Source: an uncultured Candidatus Saccharibacteria bacterium (GTDB lineage: Bacteria > Patescibacteriota > Saccharimonadia > Saccharimonadales > UBA4665). Taken from it: 34,255 nt of DNA. Location: assembly GCA_903839515.1 (NCBI GenBank), contig CAIMCP010000045.1:1-34255 (forward strand), written 5' to 3'. The stretch's first letter is position 1. Each line of letters starts with the position of its first letter. The translations under genes and the position numbers were made by a program. The notes under the pieces were generated by a model. The model was not told where the DNA came from. It saw only the letters and a list, made by a program, of their open reading frames with translations, and did not search any database. Shown in pieces: positions 10,107-18,736 of this stretch.

Positions 10107-12704
10107 TTATTTACGTTTTTTTCTAGCTTTTGTTTTTCGTTGTCTCTCAGCTTTATGCGCCTTCTTGCGTTGATCATTTATCTTCTTTTTCTTCTCAAGT
10201 TCGGTTTTCTTTGTCTCAAAATCTGTTTCACCAAAATATTCAGCAGTAGTAATTTTATCTGCATTCGAAACAGATTTTCTAGCAGCTCTAGTTAGATCAG
10301 TGTCAAGTGGTGTATCAGCGAGATTCGGCTCTGCATGGAATAGTGCAGTCACTATATCGTGCTGCAAAACAGATTGCATTGTTTCAAAAATTCTTTGAGA
10401 TTGGCGCCTATACTCAACAAGTGGATCTCTTTGACCGACACTCATCCAGTGGATTCCTTCTCTTAAATGATCCATATTCTCTAAGTGTTGCATCCATAAA
10501 TTATCAAGAATTTGTAGATAAATTTCTCTCTCAATTTTTCTCATATTATCTTTACCGAAAGATAATTCTCTCGATTCATAAATTTCTGTAGCTTCTGTCA
10601 AAAGCACTTTTTCAAACTTATCGTGAGGTGCAGCAAAAAGTCTTTCCATGGTTTCTGGAGAAAGCGGAATAACCTCATTAATTATTGATTTCAAATCATC
10701 GACTGACTTGACCTCAATATTTGCAAGAACTTTGATTTGATCATTGAGTATGATCTTAATTCTCTTGCTTATATCATCAGCAAGTAGAATCTCTCGCCTC
10801 ATTATATATACTGCTTTTCGATGTCGGTTCATGACATCATCATACTGAACTACATTTTTACGCTGATCAAAATGAAATCCCTCGACCTTTTTCTGGGCGC
10901 CTTCAAGACTTTTAGAAATTAATCTGTTTTCGATTGGAGTTTCGTCGTCAACTTTTAGTCTATCCATTAAACCAGATATTCTATCTCCGCCGAAAATCCT
11001 CATCAAGTCATCCTCTGTACTGACAAAGAATTGAGTTAATCCTGGGTCACCTTGACGACCTGACCTTCCTCGTAGCTGGTTATCAATTCTACGGCTTTCA
11101 TGTCTTTCAGATCCTAGTACGAATAAACCACCCAGTTCCTTAACTCCCTCACCAAGAACAATATCTGTTCCTCTACCGGCAATATTTGTGGCAAGCGTTA
11201 CGGCTTGTTTTTCACCAGCCTTTGATATGATTTGGGCTTCTTTTTCGTTATTTTTTGCATTTAAGATTTTATGAGGAACGCCGGCCTTCTTAAGAGCGGC
11301 ACTAAGCATTTCATTTTTCTCAATAGAGACGGTTCCAATCAATACTGGCTGGCCTTTTTCATAACAGACTCTTACTTCTTTTGCGATTGCATTGAATTTA
11401 CCTTTTTCGCTCTTGTAAATTCGATCTGGTCTATCGATACGATTGATTATTCGGTTAGAAGGAATCTCTACTACGTCTAGCTTGTATATTTGATGAAACT
11501 CCTCGCTTTCAGTCAAAGCGGTTCCTGTCATTCCCCCAAGCTTAGAATAAAGCCTAAAAAGATTCTGGAATGAAATTGAAGCGAGTGTCATGGATTCCTG
11601 TTGGACCTCAACATTCTCTTTGGCCTCAATTGCCTGATGAAGACCTTCGTTATATCTTCGCCCCTTCAAAAGTCTTCCAGTGAATTCATCGACTATTACA
11701 ATTTCGCCATCCTTAGATGCTACATAATCTTTATCTCTTTTGAATAATGCCTCTGCTTTAAGTGCTTGTTCAAGGTGATAAATTGATCTTATATTATCTG
11801 AGGCATATAAACTTTCAATTCCCAATATTTCTTGAACTTTTTCTACACCCTTATCGGTCAATATTACTGTTTTCCTTTTTTCGTCTGTCTCATAATCTTC
11901 GTCAAGTTTTAACTGTTTAGCTACTTTTGAAAACTGAGAATATGCGTTCGCACTAGTAACAGATGGAGCAGAGATAATAAGTGGAGTTCTTGCTTCGTCA
12001 ATCAAAATAGAGTCAACTTCATCAACAATTGCATAATGCAGATCCCTTTGTCTCAACTGGTCAATTTCTCTAACCATATTATCTCTAAGGTAATCAAAAC
12101 CAAATTCATTATTCGTACCGTAAGTTATATCTGCCTTATATGCATCTTGCCTAGATATTGGCTTTAGGTGCATAAATCTTTCATCCGTATGATCTTTGTT
12201 TATGTATTCTGGATCATATAGAAATGATTCATCTGGAATAATAACAGCTGTAGTCATACCTAAAAAGCTATATACTTGAGCCATCCAGCCAGAATCTCTT
12301 TGAGCAAGATAATCATTCACGGTTACCACATGAACGCCCTTACCGGTTAATGCATTAAGAAATACAGGTAAAGTAGCAACTAGCGTTTTGCCCTCACCTG
12401 TCTTCATCTCTGCCACATTACCTTCGTGGAGAACCATTCCACCAATTAATTGCACGTCGAAATGCCTCTGGCCTAGAGTTCTAGTAGCAGCTTCTTTAAC
12501 CAAAGCAAATGCATCAGGTAAAATATCGTCTAATGTCTCTTTGGATAGCCTCTTTTTTAATACATCCGACTGTTTTTTTAGCTGATCATCGGACATTTTG
12601 CCATATTTATCAGACAAAGAGTTAACTAATGTAACTTTTTTTCTTAGTCTTTTAATTGTCTTAACTTGAGGATCACCAAGGATTCTCTTAATAACTTTCT
12701 TCAC
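10107..12704 (-). CDS. secA: Preprotein translocase ATPase SecA
   Basis: MKTGEGKTLVA, YGTNNEFGFDYLRDNM, VDEVDSILIDEARTPLIIS, NIAGRGTDIVLG, GRSGRQGDPG. Confidence 0.98.
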   Translation of the reverse strand: MKKVIKRILGDPQVKTIKRLRKKVTLVNSLSDKYGKMSDDQLKKQSDVLKKRLSKETLDDILPDAFALVKEAATRTLGQRHFDVQLIGGMVLHEGNVAEMKTGEGKTLVATLPVFLNALTGKGVHVVTVNDYLAQRDSGWMAQVYSFLGMTTAVIIPDESFLYDPEYINKDHTDERFMHLKPISRQDAYKADITYGTNNEFGFDYLRDNMVREIDQLRQRDLHYAIVDEVDSILIDEARTPLIISAPSVTSANAYSQFSKVAKQLKLDEDYETDEKRKTVILTDKGVEKVQEILGIESLYASDNIRSIYHLEQALKAEALFKRDKDYVASKDGEIVIVDEFTGRLLKGRRYNEGLHQAIEAKENVEVQQESMTLASISFQNLFRLYSKLGGMTGTALTESEEFHQIYKLDVVEIPSNRIINRIDRPDRIYKSEKGKFNAIAKEVRVCYEKGQPVLIGTVSIEKNEMLSAALKKAGVPHKILNAKNNEKEAQIISKAGEKQAVTLATNIAGRGTDIVLGEGVKELGGLFVLGSERHESRRIDNQLRGRSGRQGDPGLTQFFVSTEDDLMRIFGGDRISGLMDRLKVDDETPIENRLISKSLEGAQKKVEGFHFDQRKNVVQYDDVMNRHRKAVYIMRREILLADDISKRIKIILNDQIKVLANIEVKSVDDLKSIINEVIPLSPETMERLFAAPHDKFEKVLLTEATEIYESRELSFGKDNMRKIEREIYLQILDNLWMQHLENMDHLREGIHWMSVGQRDPLVEYRRQSQRIFETMQSVLQHDIVTALFHAEPNLADTPLDTDLTRAARKSVSNADKITTAEYFGETDFETKKTELEKKKKINDQRKKAHKAERQRKTKARKKRK

Positions 12705-12788: not shown

Positions 12789-13151
12789 TTAAATATTTTG
12801 TTTCTTTTTTAATAAATTTAAACTATGCCTAATTCTCGAAGTACTATGGAGTCCTTTGTACTTCATTATTTGATTTTTAAGCTTCGTTTCAACAATGTCA
12901 ATTGCGGCGTATATATTTAATGTAGTCTCGCTGGTCATTAAAACTTCTTTAGGTAAGGTCATTTTGACTTCGCAAGTCAATTTTCTTTTGTCCTTAGCCT
13001 TCGACTCTTTGAGCCACACTTCGGCATGCGCACTTTCCTTTACGTGCTTAGACATATACTTATCTAAACCGGCAATTTTCTTAATCACGTACTTTGTCAG
13101 ATCCTCATCTACATCTAGATGGACGCCATTTATTACAATATTTTCAATCAT
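12789..13151 (-). CDS. hpf: Ribosome hibernation promoting factor / RaiA family, short form
   Basis: 120 aa; IVINGVHLDVDEDLTKYVIKKIAGLDKY...AEVWLKESKAKDKRKLTCEVKM; located just upstream of secA. Confidence 0.85.
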   Translation of the reverse strand: MIENIVINGVHLDVDEDLTKYVIKKIAGLDKYMSKHVKESAHAEVWLKESKAKDKRKLTCEVKMTLPKEVLMTSETTLNIYAAIDIVETKLKNQIMKYKGLHSTSRIRHSLNLLKKKQNI

Positions 13152-14446
13152 ATTTCCTCCATTCCTCCTAAATATTTTTTCAAAACTGCCGGAATCCTAA
13201 TATGCCCGTCTTCTGTCTGATAGTTTTCCATGATAGCAGCTAAAATTCTAGAAAATGCAAAAACCGTTGCGTCATTATTGTGCACAAATCCAATCGAATT
13301 ATCGGTTTTCCTAAAACGTGTTTTTAGAGATCTAGCCTGAAAATCTGTCATATAATCCGCGCTATGTGTTTCTCTGTATTTATTCTGTCCAGGAAACCAC
13401 ACTTCAATATCCATACCTTTAGCATTGGGCTTACCTATATCTGCGGTACATTTCTCAAGTAACTGATAAGGAAGATTTAGTTGGCTCACAAAATACTCTT
13501 CGATAGCTACTAACAGTTTATGTTCTTCAATTCCTGTTTCTGGGGTTGAAAATACTTCCATTTCCAATTTGTCGAACTGATGGAGTCTAATTATTCCTTC
13601 AGTATCCTTACCATAACTTCCCGCTTCTCTCCTGTATGAGGTCGCGTATCCCAAATATCTAATCGGTAAATCCTGCTCAGACACTATTTCAGATTGATAC
13701 ATATTACATAAGCTATGTTCGGCGCTCGCATTCATCCACAATTCGTCATCAGCTAGCTTATATGTATCGTCTTCAGCATCTAATCTTGTAGTAGCCATAT
13801 AGCTACTAGTATTAACTAGACCAGGAGGTAGTATCGGAACAAATGGTCTAGATGAAATGTTTAGATTGTTATCCTTAACTATACTATCTATAAAGTCTTC
13901 ATCCGATAACTTTTCCATGACCCAATTAATCATTGCAAACTGAAGCCTCACAAGTCCACCTTTAAGATATACAAAACGGCTACCGGCAATTTTTGCTGCC
14001 CTGGTTTTGTCAAAAAGACTATTGTCGTCATTTAATTCCCAATGATTTTTCGCATTGAATTTGAACTTCTGTGGCTCTCCGACTTTCTTGACTACTACAT
14101 TTTCATCCTCACTTGTGCCTACCGGAACTATATCTAAGGGCATATTTGGAACAAGTTTTAGAGTCTTATTATATTTTTGCTTTAAATCATTAATTTTTTT
14201 TTCGAGCTCTGATGCTTTGTTTTTTAATTCCTTTCCCTTTTCAATATCATCCTGAGAAGGTTTACTGCTAGAAAATTGTGCAGATAGTTTATTTCTCTGA
14301 TTTAATATATCTTCAAGAATCGGTATATTTCTTTTTAATTCATTGTCTAGATTAATTAATTCGTCTAAATTGACTGGATAGCCTTTTTGACGAGCTTTCT
14401 CTTCAACAAGATCTTTATTATTTCTTATAAATTGAATATCTAACAT
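13148..14446 (-). CDS. serS: Seryl-tRNA synthetase
   Basis: MLDIQFIRNNKDLVEEKARQKG N-terminal arm; class II motif 2 GYATSYRREAGSYGKDTEGIIRLHQFDKLE. Confidence 0.96.
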   Translation of the reverse strand: MLDIQFIRNNKDLVEEKARQKGYPVNLDELINLDNELKRNIPILEDILNQRNKLSAQFSSSKPSQDDIEKGKELKNKASELEKKINDLKQKYNKTLKLVPNMPLDIVPVGTSEDENVVVKKVGEPQKFKFNAKNHWELNDDNSLFDKTRAAKIAGSRFVYLKGGLVRLQFAMINWVMEKLSDEDFIDSIVKDNNLNISSRPFVPILPPGLVNTSSYMATTRLDAEDDTYKLADDELWMNASAEHSLCNMYQSEIVSEQDLPIRYLGYATSYRREAGSYGKDTEGIIRLHQFDKLEMEVFSTPETGIEEHKLLVAIEEYFVSQLNLPYQLLEKCTADIGKPNAKGMDIEVWFPGQNKYRETHSADYMTDFQARSLKTRFRKTDNSIGFVHNNDATVFAFSRILAAIMENYQTEDGHIRIPAVLKKYLGGMEEI

Positions 14447-14463
14447 GATTTATACTAATTATA

Positions 14464-15246
14464 CTATTTAATCTGTTTATTTTTAATTAAATATTTCAAT
14501 GTGAGATCGGTTCTAGATTTTGCATAAGCACAGTACTGACATTCATCACCAGTTTTTGGCATTTCTTCTAATTCCAAACAAGCTTTTAATTTTTTTATTG
14601 TAGGATTTATCCACTTATCGTCACCAACATATTCTATAACTTTAGTTCTGAATTCTACCTTATCGTAAAATCCATCAAGATCTAAACGTCCATTGGTATA
14701 GACAAAGTAACCTTTGTCGCTTACCTTAAAGCCATTTTTTCTAAGTAGCCACTGATACACTTCCATTTGGCGTTTATAAGATATTTGCCAAGGCGCATCT
14801 AAAGAAACTTCGCTTTTTTTTGCAGTCGCTTTATAGTCAACTACAATCAATTCACCTTTTTTATTTACCCAAATATCATCAACGGCACCAAAAATTAATA
14901 GATTTGTTGTTTTATCCAGATATTGAACACCATAAAAATTTTCACGCCAATTATCTAGCTCATCATGCTCGTAAGGGATAGCATCGATTTTATATTCAAT
15001 CATTAAGGGATGTGGTTCTTTGCTCTTTCTGTAGATATCGAATTCTTTTTTATAAAGCTCATCAACGGCTTTATTTATCTGAAATGGTGGAGTATCCGGT
15101 TTTGTAATTTTAAGTCTTCTATCAAGCCAGAAACATCTTGGACAATTAATAAAATCTTCAATCTTTGATCTACTGACTTTAAAAGCCTCTTTTTGTCCTG
15201 GTTTGTATGGGATAGTTCTGTATCTGCTGTAAGACGTGAATGCCAT
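14464..15246 (-). CDS. PD-(D/E)XK nuclease, Cas4/RecB-like, with two CxxC pairs
   Basis: FKVSRSKIEDFINCPRCFWLDRR; GAVDDIW...ELIVVDYKAT; QMEVYQWLL; C-terminal ECQYCAYAKSR. Confidence 0.8.
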   Translation of the reverse strand: MAFTSYSRYRTIPYKPGQKEAFKVSRSKIEDFINCPRCFWLDRRLKITKPDTPPFQINKAVDELYKKEFDIYRKSKEPHPLMIEYKIDAIPYEHDELDNWRENFYGVQYLDKTTNLLIFGAVDDIWVNKKGELIVVDYKATAKKSEVSLDAPWQISYKRQMEVYQWLLRKNGFKVSDKGYFVYTNGRLDLDGFYDKVEFRTKVIEYVGDDKWINPTIKKLKACLELEEMPKTGDECQYCAYAKSRTDLTLKYLIKNKQIK

Positions 15247-15264: not shown

Positions 15265-15885
15265 TTAGGCTAGAATAATTTTTAATATATCCTGGCTATT
15301 ATCAACCAGAAAGTCTGGATTATGCTTTGACAGTATTTTTTTTCCATTAAAACCATAACTAACTGCTATTACTTTAATGCCTGCTTTTTGAGCGGCCTTA
15401 ATGTCCCTTACCTCATCGCCAATATAGTAAGTGTCTTCTGCATTCAAATTGTTTGTAGATATAATTTTTGAGATTACTTTTGCCTTACTTAGTAATCCTA
15501 CATTGCCATATATTCTCGTAAAGTTATCTCTGAGATGATGAATTTTAAGATATTTCTTGATATTAGAAGGACTATTGCTGCTCGCAATAAATAAATTAGT
15601 ATCACTTTTTTTTAATTCTATAATAGTCTTATCAATGCCTGGGATCATCTTTATTTGTCCGAGTTTTTTATTCATCTCAAGTTTTCCTCTAACAATTAAA
15701 AGAGGTAGTTTCCATGGCCTAACCCTAAGTTCCTCTGCAACCTTTATTAGACTCTCTTCTCTTAATTTATTTCTTTCCAATTGATTGAAGTGCGGTGTTT
15801 TTGGATACCATCGCTCATACATCTCAATTATAAAATCAAGACTATCTACTATTGTCCCATCAAAATCAAAAATCACATTTTTCAT
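15265..15885 (-). CDS. HAD-superfamily phosphatase (phosphoglycolate phosphatase/PpaX-like)
   Basis: MKNVIFDFDGTIVDSLDF, ASSNSP, YYIGDEVRDIKAAQKAGI. The start is re-set from 15927 to the ATG at 15885, preceded by SD AAGGA. Confidence 0.88.
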   Translation of the reverse strand: MKNVIFDFDGTIVDSLDFIIEMYERWYPKTPHFNQLERNKLREESLIKVAEELRVRPWKLPLLIVRGKLEMNKKLGQIKMIPGIDKTIIELKKSDTNLFIASSNSPSNIKKYLKIHHLRDNFTRIYGNVGLLSKAKVISKIISTNNLNAEDTYYIGDEVRDIKAAQKAGIKVIAVSYGFNGKKILSKHNPDFLVDNSQDILKIILA

Positions 15886-15893
15886 TAATATCC

Positions 15894-16697
15894 TTAAGGG
15901 CGAAGAATGCCGAAGAATACTTGCCAAGCCAGTAAGGTTTTAGCGACTAGGCTCAATATCATATATATCTTTTCACCGAATAAATAGTTTTTCCAGTTTC
16001 CGATTTTCTTATACTGCAGGTACATATTTATGGCGAAGCAATTAAAGCTTACAAATATTGTTACGTAAATGAAGTACACGAAAGTTGGTATTCCACCACC
16101 GCCCCATACTTCGACTCCTACGGTATATATCAAAAAAACTACCCATGGAATAATGCCTGCTATACAGCCTATGACATAACTAATCCAACTTGTTTTCTTG
16201 GTAGTCTGATTATGAATCTCCATAACTAGTCCAAGTAGGTTCATGACAAGTATTAGTGTGAATATCATAATTAGGCTAGACAAGTCGGTAACACCCGTTA
16301 GGAAACTAACCGCAATCATCATTGTGCTGGCGCTAAATGAATACTCAAACCATCTAAATTTGTTAATCCCAATCTTTAAATCTGATTCATATTTTTGCCT
16401 ATATCGTGTAGAGACTATAAGATGGGCGATCGCAGACATGAAGAAAAATGCTGCTATTACGTAGGCCATTCTAACATCGAATAAATGTCTCTGGGCAGTG
16501 ACTAAAACTGGATGACTTGACGTAGATAGAATTGGATTCATGGTCAAAAAGTTTGTAGTTACAGGAAAAGCCCTGCTCTGACTTAAGACTAATATCAATA
16601 TTCCAAATAATGCATGAATACCAGCAAGGCTTTTATTCCATTTATTTAGCTCAGGATATGTTACTTCTTTTCCAAAAATTTTATTTATTATCTTCAT
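15894..16697 (-). CDS. Heliorhodopsin
   Basis: 267 aa with about 7 TM segments. Helix-7 motif SLVAKTLLAWQVFFGILRP (K253), helix-3 motif NKFRWFEYSFSASTMM (E118), conserved-looking H28 and H92. Confidence 0.9.
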   Translation of the reverse strand: MKIINKIFGKEVTYPELNKWNKSLAGIHALFGILILVLSQSRAFPVTTNFLTMNPILSTSSHPVLVTAQRHLFDVRMAYVIAAFFFMSAIAHLIVSTRYRQKYESDLKIGINKFRWFEYSFSASTMMIAVSFLTGVTDLSSLIMIFTLILVMNLLGLVMEIHNQTTKKTSWISYVIGCIAGIIPWVVFLIYTVGVEVWGGGGIPTFVYFIYVTIFVSFNCFAINMYLQYKKIGNWKNYLFGEKIYMILSLVAKTLLAWQVFFGILRP

Positions 16698-16704
16698 TGA
16701 TACT

Positions 16705-16714
16705 ATTATAGCAA
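16705..16714 (-). promoter_or_regulatory. Heliorhodopsin promoter, extended -10
   Basis: TTGCTATAAT on the minus strand, 7 nt before the ATG; the promoter extends into the msrA-heliorhodopsin gap and the msrA 3' end, with a possible -35 TTGCTT at a 16-nt spacer. Confidence 0.7.
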
Positions 16715-16724
16715 CTAACTCTAT

Positions 16725-17207
16725 CTAAGCAACAGGACCGTAGGGAATGTGGCACATTCCTCTGCCAGTTCTTTCTGAATACTTTTGATGATATTCCTCG
16801 GCTTCATAAAAGTCTGAGGCTCTCTCAATCTGAGTTACTATTGGATTCTTCAGTTTTTTCTGACATTCCAAAGCTACTTTATCGGCAATACTTTTTTGAT
16901 CGTCAGTGATGTAAAAAATAACGGATCTATAATTATCCCCAATATCTGGTCCTTGTCTATTGAGTTGAGTTGGATCATGCATTCTAAAAAACTGCTTTAA
17001 AATAGTTTCAGTACTAACTTTATTGCCATCATATTCAACTTCAACAACTTCAGCATGACCAGTGTTGTGAGAACACACTTCTTCGTATGTCGGATTCTTT
17101 ACATGACCACCGCTATAGCCAACTCTTGTATTTACGACACCGGGAATTTGATCAAAGTAGAATTGAACCCCCCAAAAACATCCAGCCCCGAGAATTATTT
17201 TTTCCAT
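16725..17207 (-). CDS. msrA: Peptide-methionine (S)-S-oxide reductase
   Basis: EKIILGAGCFWGVQFYFDQIPGVVNTRVGYSGG. The ATG at 17207 is preferred to the track's GTG at 17216. Confidence 0.96.
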   Translation of the reverse strand: MEKIILGAGCFWGVQFYFDQIPGVVNTRVGYSGGHVKNPTYEEVCSHNTGHAEVVEVEYDGNKVSTETILKQFFRMHDPTQLNRQGPDIGDNYRSVIFYITDDQKSIADKVALECQKKLKNPIVTQIERASDFYEAEEYHQKYSERTGRGMCHIPYGPVA

Positions 17208-17212
17208 TAAAA

Positions 17213-18736
17213 TCACCCCTCCTGATTATTTTTATAAAGCTCTGGGTATATTGTCTTAGTTGTATTATCGTCTTCTTGTCTTAGTTGTGGAAATGGAACA
17301 CCTTCTCTGGCAGTAACACCTTCCAAAAACCAAAATACCCTTTCAGAATATCCCCATCCACAAGTTGGCGGCATTCCATATTCAAGCATTTCAATGAAAT
17401 CTATGTCCAGCATCATTGCTTCCTTATCTCCATCCTTACGAAGCTCCTGTTGCTCTTTAAAGCGGTCTAGCTGATCGATTGGATCATTTAGCTCACTCCA
17501 GCCATTACCTAGCTCTGAACCAGCTATTATTGGCTGAAACCGTTCAACCGTCATTGGTCTAAGCGGATCTATTTTAGCCAAAGGACTTATTAATAAAGGA
17601 GTATTGATAAGCCAAGAAGGCCCAGCGATTGTTTTTCTCAAATTTTTCCATAATTTATCTATTCCACGAGCAATATTATCTGTTTGTTCGACTTCAAGTT
17701 TATTATCGCTAAGGGCTTTCTTTACATCATCTAAAGTACAGTTAAAAACGTCGATATTGTATCGGCTCTTAATCTGTTCGCCATAATCTAGTATTTCCCA
17801 TTCTTTAGACAAGTCTACTTCAAAGCCTCTAATATTAAACTTTAGAGTTCCGAATGTTTTCTGCGCAACATCCCTGTACATTTCTGTCATGAAGGTCATT
17901 CCTTCTTTCCAGTCTGCATAAGCCCAGTACCATTCCATAGCTATATGCTCAGGTAAATGCTCATCAGTATAATTTTCATTTCTAAATCTAGGTCCAATAT
18001 CAAATACTTTTTCATATCCACCACCTATCAGTCTTTTGAGTGGTAATTCATGACTTATTCTAAGATAAAAATCTTGGTCTAGAGCATCCATGTGAGTTAC
18101 GAACGGATTAGCATCAGCGCCCCCTGTCGTATGCTCAAGGACTGGTACATTAACCTCAAGAAAATCATTTTTTATTAGATATTCTCTGGTATATTGCCAA
18201 AATTTACTCCTTCTAACAAATCTATCGTGAACATCCTGATTTGTATTTAAATCTATATATCTTCTTCTTAATCTTTCTTCTTTATTAGTGAATCCATCCC
18301 AAGATGTTGGCATTGGTCTAAGGCTTTTTGATAGAATCCTAAGTTTAGTTATCTCTATGGAAATTTCACCAGTTTGAGTCTTGATAACTTTTCCTGAGCC
18401 TTCTATGAAGTCACCCGCATCAAGTAAGTTTATGTCTGAGTAATTCAATTCACTGTGGTTATAGTTTGCATTAACGATATTATCATCCTTTAAAAAAAGT
18501 TGAATTTTTCCAGAGTCATCCTTAATAACAATAAAAGCGATTTTTCCAATTTTTCTTAGAGTTATCACCCTACCAACTAAGAAAACCTCAGAACCTGCAT
18601 GCTCATCAAAATTTTCGGAAATAACTTTAATTGCCGAAGTCCTTTTGGAGTCTGCAGGATAAGGATTAATATTCTTTTTTCTAAGTTCTTCTAGTTTGCG
18701 AAGTCTTTCTCCGCGCAACTCTTGTAGTGTAGCCAT
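17213..18736 (-). CDS. lysS: Lysyl-tRNA synthetase (class II)
   Basis: GRVITLRKIGKIAFIVIKDDSGKIQLF, FDIGPRFRNENYTDEHLPEHIAMEWYWAYAD motif 2. Confidence 0.95.
   Translation of the reverse strand: MATLQELRGERLRKLEELRKKNINPYPADSKRTSAIKVISENFDEHAGSEVFLVGRVITLRKIGKIAFIVIKDDSGKIQLFLKDDNIVNANYNHSELNYSDINLLDAGDFIEGSGKVIKTQTGEISIEITKLRILSKSLRPMPTSWDGFTNKEERLRRRYIDLNTNQDVHDRFVRRSKFWQYTREYLIKNDFLEVNVPVLEHTTGGADANPFVTHMDALDQDFYLRISHELPLKRLIGGGYEKVFDIGPRFRNENYTDEHLPEHIAMEWYWAYADWKEGMTFMTEMYRDVAQKTFGTLKFNIRGFEVDLSKEWEILDYGEQIKSRYNIDVFNCTLDDVKKALSDNKLEVEQTDNIARGIDKLWKNLRKTIAGPSWLINTPLLISPLAKIDPLRPMTVERFQPIIAGSELGNGWSELNDPIDQLDRFKEQQELRKDGDKEAMMLDIDFIEMLEYGMPPTCGWGYSERVFWFLEGVTAREGVPFPQLRQEDDNTTKTIYPELYKNNQEG

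Follow-up and report, generated by a model that had tools for sequence, protein, structure and literature searches.

A saccharibacterial heliorhodopsin at a conserved locus where many homologues lack the retinal-site residues

The function of heliorhodopsins (HeRs) is largely open, and the locus described here raises the question of what such a protein does at a genomic position where homologues with and without the residues of the retinal site occur in different lineages. A single locus holding both forms amounts to an evolutionary experiment, and comparison of the two may tell what an HeR does with light from what it does without, and show which surfaces are common to both. We analyzed a 34,255-nt stretch of DNA (the window, contig C45) from a Saccharimonadia metagenome-assembled genome (MAG) of 959 kb in 130 contigs that is 97.5% complete. 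Its nearest named relatives are Candidatus Saccharibacteria MAGs, in agreement with the first-pass annotation, which had proposed a reduced, CPR-like host from the letters of the window.

Identity and predicted structure of the window heliorhodopsin

The HeR gene of the window (HeR1) occupies positions 15894..16697 on the minus strand, a strand assignment absent from the first-pass annotation; it starts with ATG and encodes 267 amino acids ending in SLVAKTLLAWQVFFGILRP. The multi-transmembrane (TM) ORF, its C-terminal end, and the stretch RWFEYSFSAS, which falls within TM3, were all found exactly as that annotation had given them. In the profile search it had proposed, HeR1 matched Pfam PF18761 over the full profile (positions 1–242 of 242, 290 bits, E = 1.3e-86, cut-off 26.7 bits) and NF038020, the NCBIfam equivalog model for heliorhodopsins (293.5 bits, E = 1e-87, cut-off 100 bits), in both cases far above the cut-off. 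Sequence matches in the PDB included 6is6 (E = 1.6e-72), the HeR of the Thermoplasmatales archaeon SG8-52-1 (TaHeR; also 7u55), and 48C12 (E = 9.5e-46). Residues H28, H92, E118, and K253, previously named as the key HeR residues, are correctly placed and stand in the same alignment columns in TaHeR and other HeRs; the two pocket histidines, H28 and H92, also align with those of 9ljj. S249 and K253 form the SxxxK of TM7 (here SLVAK), and E118 is the Glu counterion in TM3. PF18761 was the only match, with neither PF01036 nor the DxxxK of type-1 microbial rhodopsins found in HeR1, and the retained K253 sets HeR1 apart from retinal-less (noK) opsins, the loss of the lysine being a feature of syntenic homologues.

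An AlphaFold model built from an alignment of 27 relatives (pLDDT 92.2, pTM 0.88) has seven helices (TM1 14–38, TM2 77–96, TM3 113–133, TM4 139–164, TM5 172–198, TM6 205–230, and TM7 238–264) and beta strands in the AB loop at 43–53 and 65–76. A sheet in the AB loop is a hallmark of HeRs. K253 lies in the middle of TM7, as the first-pass annotation had required of a heliorhodopsin, and E118 lies inside TM3. When the model was compared with solved structures, as had also been suggested, Foldseek returned ten matches at E < 0.001, every one a heliorhodopsin, with 6is6 at a TM score of 0.93 and an rmsd of 1.6 Å. Lysine and arginine residues number 13 in the N-terminal, BC, DE, and FG segments vs 4 in the AB, CD, EF, and C-terminal segments, a bias from which a cytoplasmic N-terminus, that is, the inverted HeR topology, is predicted. 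Judged by sequence and model together, HeR1 is a genuine heliorhodopsin.

TaHeR shares 47% identity and all active-site residues with HeR1; it is archaeal, whereas HeR1 falls in a clade of saccharibacterial proteins specific to the locus, and the EF loop of HeR1 (GVEVWGGGG) is longer. The 48C12 and actinobacterial HeRs (6su3, 6uh3, and 9ljj) share the family and active site (target-normalized TM scores 0.84–0.90) but only 34–36% identity with HeR1. HeRs of freshwater CPR Saccharimonadia, the host class of HeR1, are already published, so that HeR1 by itself is not a new kind: the relevant passages of PMC9166423 report 80 occurrences, SLVAK among the commonest motifs, and some MAGs that also carry type-1 rhodopsins. 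The TM7 lysine motif was checked in that study, but neither the present locus nor homologues without the retinal site are described in those passages.

The conserved locus and its promoter

The genes of the window run in the order greA-lysS-msrA-HeR-HAD-PDDEXK-serS-hpf-secA, on the minus strand throughout. The conserved form of the locus is lysS-msrA-(HeR)-HAD-(RumA/RsmE)-PDDEXK-serS-hpf-secA, in which HeR homologues occur across the order; in many lineages, HeR and PDDEXK are separated by RumA-like and RsmE methyltransferases. Upstream of HeR1 lie lysS (lysyl-tRNA synthetase, 17213..18736, assigned from its ORF and synteny) and, overlapping it by 4 nt, msrA (peptide methionine sulfoxide reductase, 16725..17216, Pfam/NCBIfam), which has the Shine-Dalgarno sequence GGAGGG. 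Downstream follow a phosphoglycolate-phosphatase-like hydrolase of the HAD family (15265..15885, Pfam/NCBIfam), a protein with a PD-(D/E)XK (Cas4/RecB-like) nuclease domain (14464..15246, Pfam and synteny), and, from ORFs and synteny, serS-hpf (12789..14446) and secA (10107–12704), all on the minus strand; the neighbors are mostly housekeeping genes. The HAD gene starts 8 nt past the HeR1 stop codon, which is overlapped by an AAGGA, and the two genes are probably cotranscribed and translationally coupled. In some HeR-less relatives (L057:3958-6072 and L059:2740-4851), the slot between msrA and HAD is filled by an uncharacterized protein of ~704 amino acids with ~3 TM segments. At the same locus, some families (relatives L099, L100, L103, L104, L111, and L134) carry a second, divergent type of SerRS, with 34–39% identity to that of the window vs 50–63% for the other type, an apparent in-place replacement.

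HeR1 has no Shine-Dalgarno sequence; a TATAAT begins 13 nt upstream of its ATG within an extended −10 promoter motif of the leaderless type (TGCTATAAT, 16705..16713, minus strand), whose function as a promoter is proposed. Of the 49 syntenic HeR homologues, 29 have such a motif 12–16 nt ahead of a start codon (shuffled sequences gave ~0.2 in all), divided between 14 of 20 copies with the retinal-site pair and 15 of 29 without it. The simplest reading is that HeR and HAD form a leaderless transcription unit within a long directon. TATAAT-like boxes 13–17 nt before the ATG, without a Shine-Dalgarno sequence, were seen in the window at HeR, PDDEXK, serS, lysS, and uppS, and leaderless transcription seems to be common in this genome.

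Homologues without the retinal site

HeR matches were present in 25 of 93 family genomes and in 103 of 393 sampled genomes of the class. From the loci around these matches, we assembled 49 full-length HeR homologues at the locus, that of the window included. The pair corresponding to E118 and K253 is kept in 20 of these (hereafter sighted) and missing in 29 (blind), of which 19 lack the lysine and 10 have the lysine but lack the glutamate, with Asp in its place in four. Among the Saccharimonadia HeRs scored outside the locus, all 46 keep the pair, a difference for which the Fisher test (p = 1.4e-11) is merely indicative, the sequences being related and "outside" having been judged for some from 1.5-kb flanks. 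The first-pass reading of family, residues, and host was sound, but it had missed the syntenic family with its many blind members, as well as two further rhodopsins of the genome.

Among the nearer blind members, TM7 aligns without gaps or ambiguity, with AxSxxAWQ and Ser, Ala, Glu, or Val in place of the lysine. Single alignment columns are uncertain in the most divergent members (G107, G365, G326, and G341). Most divergent blind members nevertheless cover almost the full length of the HeR profile and exceed the Pfam cut-off, below which G107 falls. Most of the lysine-less proteins of the locus exceed this cut-off and would be labelled as photoreceptors, which calls for caution in annotation. 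None of the blind genes has an internal stop, and in the ten pairs compared, differences were most frequent at codon position 3, followed by 1 and then 2 (0.63, 0.38, and 0.27, respectively, for G256/G373), indicating that the blind genes are under purifying selection. In some divergent homologues (L103, L105, L110, and L118, compared with L104, L108, and L109), Asp118 comes with Lys or Arg253, which suggests that a D-K/R salt bridge may replace the retinal Schiff base.

In slots lacking a Pfam match, a blind-clade profile brought up no additional full-length HeR of a more divergent kind, a scan with alignment A1 found no conserved stretch, and no blind HeR occurred in other Patescibacteria, where all 18 sampled HeRs have the Glu and Lys. 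Lysine-less HeRs were not described in any open-access paper we found, an absence that does not prove novelty; a large HeR survey retained SxxxK sequences only (PMC8612252), so that lysine-less HeRs would have been dropped from it. Haloarchaeal site-less opsins, Rh-noK, and the freshwater FArhodopsins (PMC10308929) resemble the blind homologues in having no Schiff-base lysine, but these are type-1 proteins, whereas the blind homologues belong to the HeR family, and HeR1 itself keeps the lysine.

In an HeR tree rooted with TaHeR, all sampled proteins of the locus, sighted and blind, formed one clade (bootstrap 97, SH-aLRT 94), separate from the other saccharibacterial HeRs of the tree, indicating a sighted ancestral state from which the blind one derives. 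This tree fits one origin of the loss as well as many (p-AU 0.32). In a tree of the neighboring genes (PDDEXK, SecA, HPF, and GreA), the state changes about 8 times, and at least 5 changes are forced by strong branches; blind G164 stands next to sighted G380, blind G130 lies within a sighted family, and blind G005 is sister to the window genus. An earlier locus tree from serS and lysS was dropped, its families being scattered and its SerRS of two divergent types. Provided that the gene stayed in place, the simplest reading is that the retinal site was lost repeatedly; alternatively, the HeR gene may have been replaced at the locus.

Companion rhodopsins, retinal supply, and possible function

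The window genome encodes a second HeR, of the actinobacterial 48C12/9ljj type (C69:464-1246, L001/L034), and a type-1 rhodopsin (C122:3863-4537, L003) whose motif, as read from the sequence, is D-T-S at the pump positions plus DxxxK. Both same-genus genomes carry this trio, which makes contamination of the bin unlikely. The first-pass annotation had noticed that the window lacks a retinal biosynthesis gene, and the genome-wide search that it recommended extended this finding: blh (PF15461), phytoene synthase (PF00494), and carotenoid oxygenase (PF03055) had no match in the whole 97.5%-complete genome. Retinal therefore likely comes from outside, and the organism probably takes it from others; an external source has also been proposed for saccharibacterial type-1 rhodopsins (PMC9296517).

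We infer light sensing or regulation by HeR1. In the reading we favor, at a probability of roughly 0.6, HeR1 is a slow light switch acting on a partner, not a pump, uses imported retinal, and is the sighted form of a family with a light-independent core. The protein, with seven TM helices and a cytoplasmic N-terminus, would bind all-trans retinal, acquired from other organisms, at K253 with E118 as the counterion; light would drive a slow switch that regulates a partner protein, and energy gain would be left to the separate DTS type-1 rhodopsin. The blind homologues at the locus suggest a core role without light, which could be partner binding or signaling, light probably being an optional, added input. 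Elsewhere, HeRs act on an ABC transporter, with light-regulated partners (PMC11109279), and on glutamine synthetase and photolyase (as cited in PMC10308929). A further step, which we take only tentatively, is that the HeR-fold protein of the locus has its primary, conserved function without retinal or light, as a partner scaffold or a sensor of chemical or membrane state. The window organism would have retained the light input, whereas the lysine and counterion would have been lost repeatedly in sister lineages in which the gene persisted in its place, often along with its promoter, giving a family of "blind heliorhodopsins."

If HeR1 were instead an ordinary sensor that signals only with retinal, the blind homologues would be decaying or separately specialized and uninformative on HeR1. 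The functional residues, all retained in the window genus, and the light regulation of the known partners would fit this account, but 29 full-length blind genes that contain no internal stop, show purifying selection in the pairs compared, often have the same promoter, and stay at the same locus are not what decay is expected to yield, and we regard it as unlikely. Ion transport by HeR1, as a proton channel or pump, has a precedent in some viral HeRs that transport protons (as cited in PMC10308929); it is very improbable, however, for a protein closest to archaeal TaHeR in a genome with a dedicated DTS type-1 rhodopsin. About equally improbable is a specific partnership between HeR and either MsrA or the HAD hydrolase for repairing light-induced oxidative damage. 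These genes are direct neighbors, many slot loci have msrA immediately upstream, in either orientation, and mitigation of oxidative stress has been proposed for HeRs (PMC8612252 and PMC9166423). Nevertheless, many relatives without HeR also have msrA next to HAD, HAD is present in 88 of 93 family genomes vs 25 for HeR, and RumA or RsmE methyltransferases replace HAD after HeR in several families. Gene context therefore cannot name or prove the HeR partner, and the msrA-HeR-HAD operon was dropped as functional proof; our search of the open-access literature found no paper tying HeR to methionine sulfoxide reductase.

Regarding the companion rhodopsins, it is the C69 HeR, not HeR1, that belongs to the actinobacterial type. 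The HeR of G100 and G381, from another Saccharimonadia family, shares 84% identity with the C69 HeR and 94% with its counterpart in the same-genus genome G003, pointing to horizontal exchange. The type-1 rhodopsin on C122 adjoins two small proteins that are WhiB-like in their cysteine pattern; above the cut-off, type-1 rhodopsins occurred in 8 of 393 class genomes, all 8 of which also carry an HeR of the actinobacterial type.
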